The position numbers were made by a program, and so were the translations under genes. From Thiotrichales bacterium (lineage in GTDB: Bacteria > Pseudomonadota > Gammaproteobacteria > HK1): a stretch of DNA of 64,000 nt. Under the pieces are notes generated by a model. That model did not search any database. It was not told the DNA's origin and was given only the letters and a program-made list of their open reading frames with translations. Below are positions 41,504 through 49,178 of this stretch, in pieces (positions within the stretch are counted from its first letter, which is position 1; each line of letters opens with the position of its first letter). The stretch spans positions 62,001 to 126,000 of the forward strand of contig JAPOSC010000033.1 of NCBI GenBank assembly GCA_026709935.1, read 5' to 3'.

Positions 41504-44500
41504 TCATGCTCGTTCCGCGCGTGAAAACCTTATGACCCATCTTATGGCCCCCAAGCTTGACTCGACGTTGTACTGAGTAAGCCAGTCCGGCTCAACCCAA
41601 ACAGTCGCCAGCGTCTCATCCATCACGTAATCCCGGTGCGCAGCGAGCGCCGCGGCGACATCCGGCGTGCCGTCGATGCGGAGCGTGATCCGATCCGAGA
41701 CGTCGAGGCCGGCCTGCTTGCGCGCCTCCTGGACGGTGCGCACCAGCTCGCGGGCGAGGCCCTCGCGCTCCAGCGCTTCGGTCAGCGACGTGTCCAGGCC
41801 CACGAGATAACCACCCTCCTCCGCGCAGGAATAGCCCTCGGCCGAGGTCGATTCGACGAGCACGTCCTCGGGCTCGAAGGTGATCACCTCCCCCGCCACA
41901 TCGATGTCGAAAGACCGTCCCGCCGCCACTGCGGTGGCGATGGCGCCGCCGTCCGCGGCGGCGAGCGCGGCGCGAACCGCCGGCACCCGCTTGCCGAAGC
42001 GCCGACCGATACGCGGCAGGTTCGGCTTGATGCGGTAGCTCAGGAGATCGGCGTCCGGGGCGAGCATCTCCACCGCCTTCACGTTCAGCTCCTCGAGAAT
42101 CTGCGGCGCGTGGCGCATGACGGATGCGGCCGAGGTATCGTCCGGGACGCGTACCAGCAACCGCGCGAGCGGCTGGCGCACTCGCACCCCGCTCCCGTTG
42201 CGCGCCGCCCGCCCGAGCCCGACCACGCGCTGCACGACCTCGATCTCGGCCATCAGCGCATCGTCGCGCGCGGCCGGGTCCGGCACCGGCCACTCGCTCA
42301 TGTGCACGCTCGCCGGTGCCGTATCGTCCACGCCGCACACCAGGTTCCGGTGCACGGTCTCGGTGATGAACGGCATGATCGGCGCCATCAGACGGTTGAC
42401 GGTGTGCAGGCATTCGTAGAGGGTCAGGTAGGCGGCCTGCTTGTCCGGCCCCGCCGCCGCCTTCCAGAACCGCCGGCGGTTGCGGCGCACATACCAGTTG
42501 CTGAGCTGGTCGACAAAGGATTCGATCGCCCGGCCCGCCGTCAGCACGTCGTACGCCTCCAGCGCGTCCGTCACCCCGGCCACCGTCCGATGCAGCCGCG
42601 CGAGCGCCCACCGATCGATTTCGGGGCGTTCGGCGAGCGGGACATCCTCCGCCAGATCGATGCGATCGAGCTTCGCGTACATCACGAAGAACGCGTAAGT
42701 GTTCCACCAGGTGTTGATGAACCCCGACGCCACCCCGCGCACGAAGTCGACGGAGATGCGCTTCTGCGCCTCCGGCGCGATCCGGCACGCCAGGTACCAG
42801 CGCAGGGGGTCGGCGCCGACGTGGTCGAAGACGTCGTAGGGGTTGACGATGTTGCCCTGCGACTTCGACATCTTCTTCCCGTCCTTGTCCACGATGTGGG
42901 CCAGACAGATGCAGTTGCGGTACGCGACGCTGTCCGACACCAGCGCCGCGATGGCGTGCAGCGAGTAGAACCAGCCGCGGGTCTGGTCGATGGCTTCGCA
43001 GATGTAGTCGGCGGGGAAGCGGCGCTCGAACAGGTCTCGGTTCTCGAACGGGTAGTGGAACTGGGCGTAGGACATCGCGCCCGAGTCGAACCAGCAATCG
43101 ATGACCTCCGGGACGCGGCGGTAGGTGCGTTCGTTGTCCGGGTGCGTAAAGGTAATCTCGTCGATCGTCGGGCGGTGCAGGTCGACCTCCTTCAGGCTCC
43201 GCCCGCACAGCCCTTCCAGTTCCGCGACCGACCCGATGCACATGAAGTCGCCCTCGCCGTCTGTCCACACCGGCAGCGGGGTGCCCCAGAAGCGCTCGCG
43301 CGAGAGCGCCCAGTCGACGTTGTTGGCGAGCCAGTTACCGAACCGGCCATCGCGGATGGTCTCCGGTACCCAGCGGATGGTGCGGTTGAGCTCCACCATC
43401 CGGTCCCGGATCCGGCTCGTCCCGATGTACCAGGCGTGCTTCGCGTAGTAGATGAGAGGGTCGCCGGTGCGCCAGCCGTGCGGGTAGTTGTGAAGATAGC
43501 GCTCGGCGCGGAACATCAGCCCGCGCCGCTCGAGCTCGGTGATGAGGATCGGGTCCGCGTCCTTGAAGAACTTGCCCGCGACCGGCTCCACCTCGGGGAG
43601 GAAACAGCCGTCGAGCCCCACCCCGTGCACCACCGGCAGGCCCTTGGCCTGACCCAGCCGGATGTCGTCCTCGCCGTAGGCCGGGGCACAGTGCACGATG
43701 CCGGTGCCGTCCTCGATGGTCACGAAGTCGGCCGTCCACACCCGGCCGATCGGACCGTCGGCCGGCAGGTAGTCGAACAGGCGCGTGTACCGCATCCCTT
43801 CCAGTTCGGCGCCCTTGACCCGCTTCTCGATGGTGTATTCCGCATCGCGCAGCACCGTATCGACAAGGGCTTCGGCGAGGATCAGGGTCTCGCCGGCGGT
43901 GGAACCGGCGGCGGAGCCGGGGCCGGTGCCCAAGCTGGGGCCTGAGCCGGGGCCTGAGCCGATGCGCACGAAGACGTAATCGACTTCCGGGTGCACCGCT
44001 AGGGCAAGGTTCGAAGGCAGGGTCCACGGCGTGGTGGTCCACACCAGGAACGAGGTGCGCTCCGCGCCCTCGACCGGGAAGCGGACGTAAATCGAAGGGT
44101 CCTCGACCTCCCGGTACCCGAGCGCAACCTCGTGCGACGAGAGGGTGGCGCCGATGCGCGGGTCGTAGGGCACCACCTTGTAGCCCTGGTAGATGAGACC
44201 CTTGTCCCAGATCTGCCGGAGCAGCCACCACACCGACTCGATGTAGGAGTTGTCGAGGGTGTAGTAGGCATCGCCCATGTTCACCCAGAAGCCCATGCGC
44301 TCGGTCATGCGCTCCCAGTCACCGATGTAGCGCATCACCGATTCGCGGCACCGCCGGGTGAACTCCGCCACCCCGACCTGACGCTCGATCTCGGCCTTGT
44401 CGAAGATCCCGAGTTCCTTCTCGATCTCGTGCTCGACCGGCAGGCCGTGGGTGTCCCATCCAGCCTTGCGCGGGCAGTGGTAGCCCTGCATGTGCTTGAA

Positions 44501-44821
44501 GCGGGGGAAGATGTCCTTGAAGGTGCGGGCGAGGACATGGTGAATGCCGGGCCGCCCGTTGGCGGTCGGCGGCCCTTCGTTCCAGCAGTAGAGCGGCCGG
44601 CCCTCGCTCGCGCGCTGCGCCTCGTTGAACATGTCGTGCTCGCGCCACAGGGCGAGCACTTCCTCCTCGAGCTTCACGCCGTCGTAGCGGCTCGGCACGT
44701 CCGCCAACCCCATGGCATGGCCCGTGGCATGGCCCGCAGCATGTCCCGTGGGATGCGCCCCGGTTTGTCCTGCCGCCCGATCCGCCGCCTGATCCATCAT
44801 TTTCCCCGCTGTCCCTTCCAT
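41504..44821 (-). CDS. ileS: Isoleucyl-tRNA synthetase, type 2
   Basis: A 1105-residue IleRS charging tRNA(Ile). The HIGH motif appears as GIHHVL after PPTANGRP, the CP1 editing domain lies between residues 200 and 430 (LVWTTTPWTLPSNLAL), KMSKSQGN is near residue 645, and the anticodon-binding region follows. The GRPGIHHVLARTFKDIFPR form is the eukaryote-like type 2 enzyme, the group often resistant to mupirocin, not the usual proteobacterial type 1. The start at 44821 has GGGGAG upstream; residues 1-40 are a low-complexity His/Gly/Ala-rich leader. A T-box leader precedes it. Confidence 0.95.
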   Translation of the reverse strand: MEGTAGKMMDQAADRAAGQTGAHPTGHAAGHATGHAMGLADVPSRYDGVKLEEEVLALWREHDMFNEAQRASEGRPLYCWNEGPPTANGRPGIHHVLARTFKDIFPRFKHMQGYHCPRKAGWDTHGLPVEHEIEKELGIFDKAEIERQVGVAEFTRRCRESVMRYIGDWERMTERMGFWVNMGDAYYTLDNSYIESVWWLLRQIWDKGLIYQGYKVVPYDPRIGATLSSHEVALGYREVEDPSIYVRFPVEGAERTSFLVWTTTPWTLPSNLALAVHPEVDYVFVRIGSGPGSGPSLGTGPGSAAGSTAGETLILAEALVDTVLRDAEYTIEKRVKGAELEGMRYTRLFDYLPADGPIGRVWTADFVTIEDGTGIVHCAPAYGEDDIRLGQAKGLPVVHGVGLDGCFLPEVEPVAGKFFKDADPILITELERRGLMFRAERYLHNYPHGWRTGDPLIYYAKHAWYIGTSRIRDRMVELNRTIRWVPETIRDGRFGNWLANNVDWALSRERFWGTPLPVWTDGEGDFMCIGSVAELEGLCGRSLKEVDLHRPTIDEITFTHPDNERTYRRVPEVIDCWFDSGAMSYAQFHYPFENRDLFERRFPADYICEAIDQTRGWFYSLHAIAALVSDSVAYRNCICLAHIVDKDGKKMSKSQGNIVNPYDVFDHVGADPLRWYLACRIAPEAQKRISVDFVRGVASGFINTWWNTYAFFVMYAKLDRIDLAEDVPLAERPEIDRWALARLHRTVAGVTDALEAYDVLTAGRAIESFVDQLSNWYVRRNRRRFWKAAAGPDKQAAYLTLYECLHTVNRLMAPIMPFITETVHRNLVCGVDDTAPASVHMSEWPVPDPAARDDALMAEIEVVQRVVGLGRAARNGSGVRVRQPLARLLVRVPDDTSAASVMRHAPQILEELNVKAVEMLAPDADLLSYRIKPNLPRIGRRFGKRVPAVRAALAAADGGAIATAVAAGRSFDIDVAGEVITFEPEDVLVESTSAEGYSCAEEGGYLVGLDTSLTEALEREGLARELVRTVQEARKQAGLDVSDRITLRIDGTPDVAAALAAHRDYVMDETLATVWVEPDWLTQYNVESSLGAIRWVIRFSRAERA

Positions 44822-44835
44822 CGTCGCTGCTCCCC

Positions 44836-45222
44836 AAAAACGACAACGCCCCGAGGTCCGATGCGGTGCGAACCCCGGCGGGTGCGCGCACTGCATCGAA
44901 TCCCGGGGCGAAGGTTCGTCCGCTCGAATCGTGGACGAAGTCGCGGTACCACCCGGTTTCGCCCGCGTCTCGCGACGCGAGCCTCGTGCGGTCACTGCCT
45001 GCTTCCGCGCGAACGGCAGGCATCCCCGCAATCCAGGGGGCAATGACCCGGCCCGATGACGGGGGCCGACCGGCCGAGCCTACTGGAACGCGCGCGGCGC
45101 GTCCGTTCGGTCGGCGGCTCCGGGGCGATCTTCACCGGTGGCGCGGCGCGGAGCTTCCACCATCCTCCGCTCGCTCGAACCCGCACCGGCCCGGCTACTC
45201 CTCCCCTTCACAGCCTTTGCAG
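44836..45222 (-). ncRNA. T-box riboswitch leader of ileS
   Basis: The exact T-box core GGGTGGTACCGCG is at 44954-44942, followed six bases later by the CGTCC antiterminator partner. Upstream lies a stem I candidate: AGTA at about 45197, a distal hairpin GCGGAG/CTCCGC with GATGGTGG loop near 45150, and GGTGAAGATC near 45133 offering ATC (Ile) as specifier. Downstream, a 23-base arm (44909-44887) pairs with 44870-44848 and is followed by five T (44840-44836), an intrinsic terminator just before the ribosome-binding site. Uncharged tRNA(Ile) would favour read-through. Confidence 0.88.
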
Positions 45223-45297
45223 CCGCCGCCATGCGACAGCCCGACACAATCATAGCGCCCCGGAACGACGACACGCCATCCGGGCCGACCCGCGGCA

Positions 45298-45380
45298 GTG
45301 TCTCACTTTGACTCCTGAACTCTCGGGAAAGCCCATGCACACAGACCGGGGACACCAGACGGGATATCGAAGTGAGACAC
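45298..45380. mobile_element. 83-bp MITE-like element with 11-bp inverted ends
   Basis: GTGTCTCACTT (45298-45308) and AAGTGAGACAC (45370-45380) are perfect inverted repeats bounding 83 bases with no coding potential. The ends resemble insertion-sequence termini. It lies between the ileS leader and the tdm stop. No clear target-site duplication. Confidence 0.55.
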
Positions 45381-45424
45381 CACCTGACCCGCAGTGCGCG
45401 TCCGATTCGTGGGGGAGAGCCGAC

Positions 45425-47791
45425 CTACCCCCGCACCCGGGATTTCGTCGGATCGTAGAAGGGCAAGGGCACCACTCGGGCCGGAATGCGCTTCTGGTGG
45501 CTGTCCAGCTTTCCGACCTCGACCGCGGTCCCTTCGCCCGATGCCGTCACGTCCATCCGGCAGAGCGCGATGTTTCTGCGCAGGATCGGCGAACGCAGCC
45601 CGCTGGTCACGGTGCCGACGCGGGCGCGCCCGATATGAACGCAGTCGCCTTGGTTCGCCGGCTCCTGCCCGACGAGTTCCAGGCCCACCAGCCGGCGCTG
45701 CGGCGAGCGCGCGCGCCGAATCAGGGCTTCCCGACCCACGAAATCGTCTTCCTTGGTCTTCAGCGGCACCGTGAAACCGATGCCGGCCTCGAAGGGATCG
45801 GTCCGGTCGTCGAACTCGTGGTCGGCGAAAATCAGACCGGCCTCGATCCGCACCATGTCCAGTGCATCCAGACCGAAGGGCGAGAGGCCATACGGCTCGC
45901 CGGCGGCCCAGACGGCATCCCATACGCCGCCCGCGTCGCGCGGATGGCACCACACCTCGAAGCCCAGCTCGCCGGTATAGCCGGTGCGGGAGACGATGAT
46001 CGGTATCCCGGCGTGATCGCCGATCCGGCCGATGGCGAAGCGGAACCAGCGCAGCTCCCGTACCGTCGGCTGGGTCGGCGGCGTCCACACGACGGCATCG
46101 AGGATCTCCCGGCTCCTCGGCCCCTGGACCGCCACGTTGTGAAGCTGCTCGGTCGACGACCGGACCCAGACGTGGAGACCGAGCTTCACCGCCTGCTCGC
46201 GCATCCACTCGCCGTCATGGTCCGAGCCGCCGATCCAGCGGAAATTGTCCGCGCCGAGGCGGAAGACGGTGCCGTCGTCGATCATGCCGCCGGTCTCGTG
46301 GCACATGGCGGAGTAGACCACCTGACCGGTGGCCAGCCGGCGCATGTCCCGGGTGAGCACCCACTGCATCAGACGCTCCGCGTCCGGCCCCAGAACCTCG
46401 AACTTGCGCAGCGGCGACAGGTCCATGATCGCGGCCCGCTCGCGGCAGGCCCAGTACTCGTCCAGGGCGCCCCGGTTGGTGAAACTGCCGGCCAGCCAGT
46501 AGCCGTTGTATTCGATGAAGTTCCGGGTGTGCCGGGCAAACCGGTCGTGGAAACCGGTCTCCCGGGTCAGTTCGGGATCGGCGTCGGGGGTCATGCGATG
46601 GGCCACCGCGGTTGAAAAGACGTTCTCGCGCGGGTAGACCCGCACGTGGATGTCGGTCGGATTCCAGCCGTTGGCGGCATCGATGTCGTCGGGACACGCG
46701 GACGATACGCAGACCAGATCGGTCAGCGCCCGCAACAGCACGTAGTCGCCCGGCCGCGACCAGGGGTTGTCGAGGAACGCCTGGTTGGCGTCGTCGAATC
46801 CGGTGTTGAAGAAGAAGTTGAGCGCCATCCAGCCACGGCGCGGCGCGACTCCGAACCGCGCCAGCGCCGCGTTGAAGTTGTCGGTGCAGTTGACATGGCC
46901 GGGATAACCCATGTCGGAGTAGTACTTCTCCGTGCATGCGTAGAGGAAGCTGTCGTGCCGGCCGCAGGTGTCGCGGACCACCTCGACCATCGGCTGGAGG
47001 TTCTGGTCATAGCATTTCGAGAGCAGGCCCGGCGCCGGACAGGCACTGCCCGTCAGCGTGCGGGTCGCGGTCGCGTCCAGGCAGAGTTCCAGGCCGCGGT
47101 CGAGACCGGCCACGGCCAGGGCCTGGAAATCCGAACACTCCCGACCCTGCACGTCGATGATCTGGATGAACTCGCCGGCCCGGACCTCGTAGGCCTCCGC
47201 GGTGCGGGCGGCGATGCGACAGTCGATGCGCGGGTCGGCCAGGGGCTCCGGCACCGCATGCTCGGTGGGGACGACCGGACAGGCGCGGGTCACGAAGATC
47301 TCGATCCGGGTCGGGGGATCCTGCCGGTCGACCCGCATCGCCGCCCCCGGCGCCGCCACGAAACACACCAGCGGCCGCTCGACGGTGAACGTCGCCTCGT
47401 CGCCCGGTCGCGAATCCCCACCCAGAACCTCGACCGACCGCGCCGCGGTCGGGTCGAGACCCCGCCGCCGCAAGCCACCGGCGAGCGCACGGGCCTCGGC
47501 GTCATCGCCACCGAGGATCGCCTTCAGACCTTCGGCGGTTCCGTTCGGCGCGATCCCCAGCGCTCCGGTGTCGGCGGAGCCATCCGGCGCGAAGGCCGAA
47601 AGCTCGGCGGCCTGCCGCCCCTCCCGGTCGCGGACCGTGATGGTGTCGCCCGGCTCCAGGGAAAGGACGACCGCCCCGCCCCCCCGGGCGACATGGCGTT
47701 CCACTCCGAAGCCGAGCACGGGGAGGCCCGGCAGGAGGACGGCGCCGGAGGTCGAGGGCCGTTGCGACAGCGGAGACGACCGGGCATTCAT
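45425..47791 (-). CDS. tdm: Trimethylamine N-oxide demethylase Tdm (DUF1989-GcvT fusion)
   Basis: A 788-residue fusion. Residues about 20-370 are the DUF1989 zinc domain (conserved Cys in GRECSDFQA, LSKCYDQNLQPM, CTDNFN); residues 390-788 are a tetrahydrofolate-binding aminomethyltransferase-like domain (VSRTGYTGELGFE). Tdm splits TMAO into dimethylamine and formaldehyde and passes the formaldehyde to tetrahydrofolate. This architecture and length match the Methylocella enzyme. It starts 28 bases after tmm, forming a two-step pathway operon. Confidence 0.93.
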   Translation of the reverse strand: MNARSSPLSQRPSTSGAVLLPGLPVLGFGVERHVARGGGAVVLSLEPGDTITVRDREGRQAAELSAFAPDGSADTGALGIAPNGTAEGLKAILGGDDAEARALAGGLRRRGLDPTAARSVEVLGGDSRPGDEATFTVERPLVCFVAAPGAAMRVDRQDPPTRIEIFVTRACPVVPTEHAVPEPLADPRIDCRIAARTAEAYEVRAGEFIQIIDVQGRECSDFQALAVAGLDRGLELCLDATATRTLTGSACPAPGLLSKCYDQNLQPMVEVVRDTCGRHDSFLYACTEKYYSDMGYPGHVNCTDNFNAALARFGVAPRRGWMALNFFFNTGFDDANQAFLDNPWSRPGDYVLLRALTDLVCVSSACPDDIDAANGWNPTDIHVRVYPRENVFSTAVAHRMTPDADPELTRETGFHDRFARHTRNFIEYNGYWLAGSFTNRGALDEYWACRERAAIMDLSPLRKFEVLGPDAERLMQWVLTRDMRRLATGQVVYSAMCHETGGMIDDGTVFRLGADNFRWIGGSDHDGEWMREQAVKLGLHVWVRSSTEQLHNVAVQGPRSREILDAVVWTPPTQPTVRELRWFRFAIGRIGDHAGIPIIVSRTGYTGELGFEVWCHPRDAGGVWDAVWAAGEPYGLSPFGLDALDMVRIEAGLIFADHEFDDRTDPFEAGIGFTVPLKTKEDDFVGREALIRRARSPQRRLVGLELVGQEPANQGDCVHIGRARVGTVTSGLRSPILRRNIALCRMDVTASGEGTAVEVGKLDSHQKRIPARVVPLPFYDPTKSRVRG

Positions 47792-47819
47792 CGGACGATC
47801 GACCGGGATCCGGGCCGCG

Positions 47820-49178
47820 CTATCCGTTGCAGAGATAGCTCTCCATCGAATCGTCCAGCGCGTCGGCCCAGAGCGTATGGTGGACCGGAGCCATCGTGCC
47901 GGTCATCACGGATCGGTACCCGTTGTCCCGGAACGTCATGATGTTCTGCTTCTTGTGCTTCTTCCACTGGAAGAACGCCTCGTTGGCCCCGTCCACGTCG
48001 AAGCTCGGATAGTCGGTCTCGGCGACGAGCTCCCTCACGTAGTCGCCCTGATAACGGATCGCGGCATAGTCGTCTTCGATCGCGTCTTCCCGGGCTTCCC
48101 GCTCGGCCACGTCGGCGGCCCGGGTCTCGCGGCCCGGCACCTGAAGCCGGCCCATGATGATGTCGCGCACATACCAGGCCTGGGCGTCGAACATGTTGAA
48201 GGTGTACCACTGATCCTGCATGCCGAGATAGAACAGGTCGGGATCGTCGACCCACACCACGCCCTTGTAGAGATCGGCGGTCGCGAGCCGGTTGGCGGTC
48301 TTCAGACGCAGCTCCGGCGCCATGAAGGGGAAGTGATGCAGATAGCCGGTGCACAGGATGATGGCGTCGACATCGGCCGTCGAGCCGTCCTTGAAGGTGC
48401 AGGTATTGCCGGCGACCTTCCGGAGCAACGGCACCTCCTTCCAGTTGTCCGGCCAGGCGTAGCCCGTGGGTGCGGTGCGATGGCTGACGGTGACGGACTT
48501 GCAGCCGTATTTCCAGCATTGGGAGCCGATGTCTTCGGCCGAATAGCTGGTGCCGACGATGAGGATATCCCGGCCCTTGAACTCGACCGCGTCGCGAAAG
48601 TCGTGGGCGTGCAGCACGCGCCCGTTGAAGCGGTCGAGACCGTCGAAATGCGGCACGTTGGGGGTCGAGAAGTGACCGGTGGCCACGACGACGTGATCGA
48701 AGCTCTCGGTGGTCTCCGCGTCATTGGCCAGATCGTGCGCAGTGACATGGAACCGCCCGGTCGCAGCGTCACGCTCGACCCGGCGCACCGGCGTCCGGAA
48801 GCGGATCGCGCCGCGCACATCCGCCTTCTTCACCCGGCCCTCGATGTAGTCGAACAGCACCGCGCGGGGCGGATAGGAGGCGATCTGCTGGCCGAAATGC
48901 TCCTCGAACGAATAGTCGGCGAACTCCAGCCCCTCCTTCGGACCGTTCGACCACAGGTAGCGGTACATCGAGCCGTGGACCGGTTCGCCGTACTCGTCCA
49001 GCCCGGTCCGCCACGTATAGTTCCACAGTCCGCCCCAGTCGCCCTGCTTCTCGTAGCAGACGATCTCCGGAACCTCGGCGCCCCCGGCCCTCGCGGACTG
49101 GAACGCCCTCAACTGGGCGAGGCCGGAAGGCCCCGCGCCGATCACCGCAATGCGCTTGTTCATGGCTTCACTTGTCAT
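47820..49178 (-). CDS. tmm: Trimethylamine monooxygenase Tmm
   Basis: A 452-residue class B flavin monooxygenase oxidising trimethylamine to TMAO. FAD site [13 protein letters not shown] near the N-terminus, NADPH site [12 protein letters not shown] in the middle, and [12 protein letters not shown] in place of the usual FMO fingerprint tail. CFEKQ-like [19 protein letters not shown] and [18 protein letters not shown] are near-diagnostic for bacterial Tmm. Start at 49178 or the internal ATG 49163. First gene of tmm-tdm. Confidence 0.94.

Follow-up and report, generated by a model that had tools for sequence, protein, structure and literature searches.

Some gammaproteobacterial families regularly carry a T-box leader ahead of ileS

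Textbooks assign T-boxes to Gram-positive bacteria. The T-boxes in front of actinobacterial ileS genes are translational and have a shortened stem I. The surveyed range of T-boxes covers Firmicutes, Actinobacteria, Chloroflexi and Deinococcus-Thermus, together with a few deltaproteobacterial leuA genes (PMC3766115, PMC2494555); the latter are found in Geobacter sulfurreducens and Pelobacter carbinolicus (PMC2494555). One survey covered gammaproteobacterial lineages and lists no T-boxes in them (PMC3766115, PMC2494555). In the openly accessible literature we found no report of gammaproteobacterial T-boxes, and the sequence databases may already contain such matches without comment.

The locus described here lies in a window of 64,000 nucleotides (the whole stretch of DNA that was analysed) from a marine gammaproteobacterial MAG, a draft of 88 contigs with a 3.78-Mb genome. 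A complete T-box leader occupies the minus strand from 45220 to 44836, and ileS lies directly downstream of it on the same strand. We are highly confident that this leader is a T-box of class I that responds to tRNA-Ile and regulates ileS through transcription attenuation. Its features, in the direction of transcription, are as follows.

45249..45254, minus strand: candidate -10 box TATGAT, proposed from the sequence; the same GGCGCTATGATT is kept in a relative (L014)
45103..45220, minus strand: stem I, with a base of GGC/GCC and GGGG/CCCC, an AGTA S-turn and the distal motifs AGCGA and GGATGGTG, and continuing into stem II (5' arm) (RF00230 alignment)
45127..45129, minus strand: specifier codon AUC (isoleucine) in GAA-G-AUC-G-CC (alignment of leaders)
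45073..45118, minus strand: stem II with S-turn (CGAAC / AGTAG); 6 of its 7 pairs show double changes, and 90% of cells are paired
45048..45075, minus strand: stem IIA/B pseudoknot, with a GGCCC/GGGCC helix, a CGG/CCG pseudoknot and an F-box-like CCGUCA (covariation)
44961..44982, minus strand: stem III hairpin (local folding)
44941..44956, minus strand: 5' strand of the antiterminator, CCGGG-UGGUACC-GCGA, which carries the T-box bulge of 7 nt; almost every relative has it unchanged
44912..44940, minus strand: lineage-specific hairpin in the antiterminator apical loop, containing CGTCC; also present, with other letters, in other members of the genus
44903..44911, minus strand: antiterminator 3' strand UCGCCCCGG (= TCGCCCCGG), also the terminator 5' arm (pair counts)
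44847..44910, minus strand: terminator hairpin CGCCCCGGGAUUCGAUGC...GCAUCGGACCUCGGGGCG (segment folding)
44836..44846, minus strand: U-rich tract UUGUCGUUUUU of the terminator, with TTTTT at 44836-44840; T runs stand at the same place in most relatives
44819..44835, minus strand: GGGGAG ribosome-binding site and ileS start ATG (44821), read from the sequence
41504..44821, minus strand: ileS, isoleucyl-tRNA synthetase type 2, 1105 aa, GIHH (TIGR00392, 910 bits)

The original prediction had placed an ileS T-box in a proteobacterium and proposed a covariance-model search as a check. RF00230 matches 44927-45220 over its full length (model positions 1-219) with an E-value of 1.8e-10 when 900 bases were searched. 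A search of the complete 3.78-Mb genome gave no other match and scored this one at 52.6 bits, with a significant E-value of 1.7e-10. An Rfam scan at the gathering threshold reported nothing at the locus, because 52.6 bits lies below the curated cut-off of 93 bits; this is a search cut-off and not a structural feature, and it was exceeded in only 2 of 14 control genomes in the same search. The exact T-box core CCGGGTGGTACCGCGA stands at 44941-44956 on the minus strand and occurs once in the 64 kb, where 0.15 occurrences would be expected even allowing two mismatches. A covariance model (R1), built from the sequences of relatives and the window itself, scores 110 bits on the window (E 7e-25), which is thus part of its training set. 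Ribosome-mediated leader-peptide attenuators are common for proteobacterial amino-acid genes (PMC3766115), and one could resemble a T-box by chance. However, the full covariance match and the conserved core stand against this, and the leader holds no Ile-rich short ORF (at most two Ile in 43-64 codons, both frames with GTG starts); a leader-peptide attenuator is already refuted on these grounds and retains practically no probability.

Upstream of the leader, a scan for the sigma-70 consensus found nothing, and there is no clear -35 box. A near-perfect inverted repeat, GTGTCTCACTT...AAGTGAGACAC (45295..45383 of the window), lies between the leader and a trimethylamine N-oxide demethylase gene and is possibly a small mobile or REP-like element. 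The demethylase gene and a trimethylamine monooxygenase gene (both NCBIfam equivalogs; 45425..49178, minus strand) belong to a methylated-amine degradation cluster. Several other Rfam names came up here with low scores (mir-1304, MIR1151, mir-1285 and LINC00901) and were discarded as chance matches to the terminator and the inverted repeat.

Stem I is full length and not truncated. Its AGTA S-turn and the distal motifs AGCGA and GGATGGTG (AG bulge/apical loop, tRNA elbow) are aligned and conserved among the leaders, and AGTA recurs in stem II. Compensatory change is seen in 19 of the 23 stem I pairs (RNAalifold, 24 stem I sequences). The specifier AUC is invariant in all listed leaders, although the bases on either side of it vary, the preceding one between G, U and A. 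What the original prediction had named, namely the exact core, a stem I with AGTA and distal features, an ATC specifier candidate and a terminator with five T, is all present, and stem I offers the Ile codon that the prediction depended on.

In the aligned sequences, covariation supports nearly every structural domain. Double-sided changes occur in all five pairs of the IIA/B helix; the pseudoknot is paired in 89% of cells and has one double-changed pair. For stem III, the inner part is supported in the alignment (A2), and the outer part is poorly aligned and unsupported, with 43% of cells paired. Over the whole written-out structure (stems I, II, IIA/B and III and the antiterminator), 88% of alignment cells are paired, and 32 of 51 pairs show double-sided changes against 17.1 (sd 2.3) in shuffles, a count reached by none of 500 shuffles. 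When the partner strands are slid along the alignment, pairing falls to 35-53%. Read from these alignments, the covariation reflects selection on the leader across the clade.

The antiterminator required one correction. CGTCC had been predicted as the partner of the core, but at 44933-44937 it pairs in 51% of cells, the same as shuffles, and shows no compensatory change across 18 aligned leaders. The actual partner is UCGCCCCGG at 44903-44911. With it the core forms CCGGG/CCCGG (5 pairs, 100% of cells) and GCGA/UCGC (4 pairs, 96% of cells) in 18 leaders, and in one relative (L037) a C-G pair of the antiterminator helix has become U-A. CGTCC itself sits in the inserted hairpin, whose letters differ among species of the genus (CGTCC, CGCCC, CGGCC). 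The RF00230 covariance-model alignment places CGUCC in the partner position too, probably since the inserted hairpin has no place in the family model. The corrected partner leads to a coherent mechanism, since the long terminator hairpin uses UCGCCCCGG as its 5' arm too. The bulge UGGU should be able to pair with the tRNA 3' end ACCA. One core (L034:225-240) has UGGC instead of UGGU and would pair with a tRNA carrying G at position 73.

The minimum free energy of the segment is -66.0 kcal/mol with the terminator and -53.4 kcal/mol with the antiterminator enforced; that the terminator state is favoured is expected if tRNA is needed to switch. Most relatives behave like the window in folding. 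A simple terminator scan found nothing at the locus. Three relatives (L005, L019 and L024) have no U run after the hairpin and may have an output other than termination. These few relatives, and the position of the GGGGAG ribosome-binding site immediately after the U tract, speak for a translational (class II-like) T-box, in which the leader would gate the ileS ribosome-binding site and not termination. We consider this very unlikely. This is because the hairpin is strong, includes the antiterminator strand and is followed by UUGUCGUUUUU, with T4-T8 there in most relatives. In addition, class II calls for a truncated stem I together with a sequestered ribosome-binding site, whereas stem I here is full length and it is the hairpin, and not the ribosome-binding site, that takes up the CCCCGG strand.

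For transcription attenuation, the anatomy, the covariation, the Ile specifier, the gene partner and the mutually exclusive folds of the leader are established. From the known T-box mechanism we infer tRNA binding, charge sensing and attenuation in vivo as follows. Transcription would start just upstream of 45220. When tRNA-Ile is charged, the nascent RNA would fold into the terminator (44910..44847 and the U tract) and transcription would stop ahead of ileS. When isoleucine or IleRS activity is short, uncharged tRNA-Ile(GAU) would read the AUC of stem I and dock on the distal stem I motifs, while its free ACCA end would pair with the bulge UGGU. This pairing would stabilise the antiterminator (CCGGG/CCCGG and GCGA/UCGC) and withdraw UCGCCCCGG from the terminator, so that ileS would be made. 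The tRNA-Ile(GAU) gene could not be read in the assemblies of the host or of a complete-looking relative (G004). rRNA operons usually carry tRNA-Ile(GAU). A 16S rRNA search gave no match in five relatives, even in single-contig genomes, so rRNA operons seem to be absent or masked in these data, which probably explains the failure to read the tRNA.

The gene under the switch is the sole ileS copy of the host genome, as judged from one match above the curated cut-off in a genome-wide profile search. Compared with IleRS proteins of known structure, host IleS is of type 2 (eukaryote-like): it scores 891 bits against the IleRS2-type structure 8c8w, 868 against Thermus 1ile and 346 against IleRS1 1ffy. 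Type 1 is the general proteobacterial form of the enzyme (PMC4861432). In host IleS the class I signature HXGH is replaced by its swapped form GIHH, and GIHH is found in every IleS of the proteobacterial clade that has a complete N-terminus, with GLHH in one. The GXHH motif has been reported to give IleRS2 mupirocin hyper-resistance (PMC10485003). The closest IleS proteins come from Gammaproteobacteria-labelled MAGs, including two 5.7-Mb single-contig chromosomes, and from Thioalkalivibrio sp. HK1.

T-boxes were described in the original prediction as rare in proteobacteria. For the class as a whole this stands: an even sample of the class has a T-box in 2 of 369 genomes, and an even sample of the phylum in 1 of 398, the host genome alone. 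It does not stand for some gammaproteobacterial families, where the T-box is a standing feature. Conservation of the leader in relatives, which the original prediction had named as a check, was found in the host genus, its family and other gammaproteobacterial families. Within the host order, a T-box core stands in context in 8 of 17 genomes, every one of them from a single family, after two further core matches had been set aside, and the same arrangement of T-box and ileS is found in single-contig chromosomes of the host genus. In the order of the second class match, 40 of 196 genomes have a T-box, 39 of them in one family, including a single-contig genome; by its place in the tree, it is probably Woeseiaceae or a family closely related to it. 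Ten loci were fetched from this order; in all of them the specifier is AUC, the antiterminator is the same and the gene downstream encodes a type 2 IleS. Matches to CCGGGTGGCACCGCG in G011:C7 and G012:C6, and a T-box-like match in G008 (L009, E 0.3, positions 190-213 only), have no stem I and were dropped.

Since the host genome is a draft MAG of many contigs, and both Firmicutes and Chloroflexi are known to have T-boxes together with a type 2 ileS, the locus could come from a Firmicute or Chloroflexi contig binned in error. Such contamination is already refuted, however, by the occurrence of the locus in the two 5.7-Mb single-contig, Gammaproteobacteria-labelled chromosomes of the genus. The many members of another order that share the locus also argue against it, as do the 135-kb length of the host contig and an IleS that is 89% identical to that of another gammaproteobacterial MAG; its probability is close to nil.

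The proteobacterial members of the IleS tree group in a single supported clade of 45 sequences. T-boxes are present in nearly every part of it, so the T-box is most simply ancestral in this clade. Over the whole IleS tree, Chloroflexi included, at least 13 state changes are needed; the tree is rooted at the midpoint only, and it does not give the donor or the direction of transfer. Leader and IleS distances are correlated (Mantel r 0.77, p 2e-4, n=21), which fits joint inheritance of the two. Because the enzyme is of type 2, the T-box and ileS unit likely entered by horizontal transfer. We suggest that an ancestor shared by several gammaproteobacterial families probably acquired T-box and type 2 ileS jointly, and that the switch was then lost repeatedly. 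A further, tentative proposal, to which we give somewhat less than an even chance, is that the native type 1 ileS of that ancestor gave way to a self-contained module, made up of the T-box and a type 2 ileS of the GXHH type with mupirocin hyper-resistance, which has been inherited since with its switch. If so, a resistant enzyme would be induced by the switch at just those times when IleRS is short of substrate or inhibited.

Losses of the switch can be seen directly. L014:2930-3000 is a clean deletion scar, in which the promoter-like TATGAT and the stem I base GCAAAAGGCTGTGAAGGGGA are fused to the ileS start ATGGAAGGGACGACGGG. In two SAR324-labelled MAGs (L028:207-450 and L032:2483-2750) stem I is recognisable, at 49 and 95 bits, and the cores are decayed (GGGCGGTATCGCG and TGGTGGCGCCGCG); L073 has no T-box. 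Such loss and decay nearby, and the low Rfam score, would agree with a decayed or decoy T-box that arrived with the gene by transfer and is non-functional in the host. This is highly improbable, because the host genome has kept all helices intact, along with the AUC specifier, the bulge and the terminator, and the covariation points to past selection across the clade. Two other loci were observed. In L044:2049-3000 the T-box precedes a glutathione-S-transferase-like ORF and then ileS, and may control a two-gene unit. On a Dehalococcoidia contig (L082:7882-8004, minus strand) a second R1-like stem I on the other strand, at 39.7 bits, suggests a second T-box near ileS.

An intact switch under selection stands ahead of an essential gene and is common in some gammaproteobacterial families. 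It opens the question of how a tRNA sensor of the Gram-positive type operates with a Gram-negative RNA polymerase and Gram-negative tRNAs. Riboswitch and gene also diverge together here, and natural knock-outs, of which the clean deletion in L014 is one, are available for comparison.

The device is an ordinary T-box of class I with the classic mechanism. The novelty, judged from the accessible literature, lies in its standing presence in Gammaproteobacteria. All consensus elements of RF00230 are matched over the full length, although the host score is below the gathering cut-off. The ileS leaders of Chloroflexi (Dehalococcoidia and Anaerolineae, e.g. L052 and L077) and Clostridiaceae have the same class I architecture and AUC specifier, and they share the stem II S-turn and the type 2 ileS downstream. 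L052 (Anaerolineae) is the nearest non-proteobacterial leader compared, with 61% mean identity over stem I and core. The antiterminators differ: the Chloroflexi have the textbook AGGG...CCCGUCCCU, whereas the gammaproteobacterial leaders have CCGGG...UCGCCCCGG, and the host genus has an extra hairpin in the antiterminator loop. Actinobacterial ileS T-boxes share the target gene, but the host leader differs from them by its full-length stem I and its terminator. The deltaproteobacterial leuA T-boxes are likewise Gram-negative and proteobacterial, but they are a single element at a leucine biosynthesis gene in another class or phylum, whereas the gammaproteobacterial T-box has ileS as its target and is found in several families.
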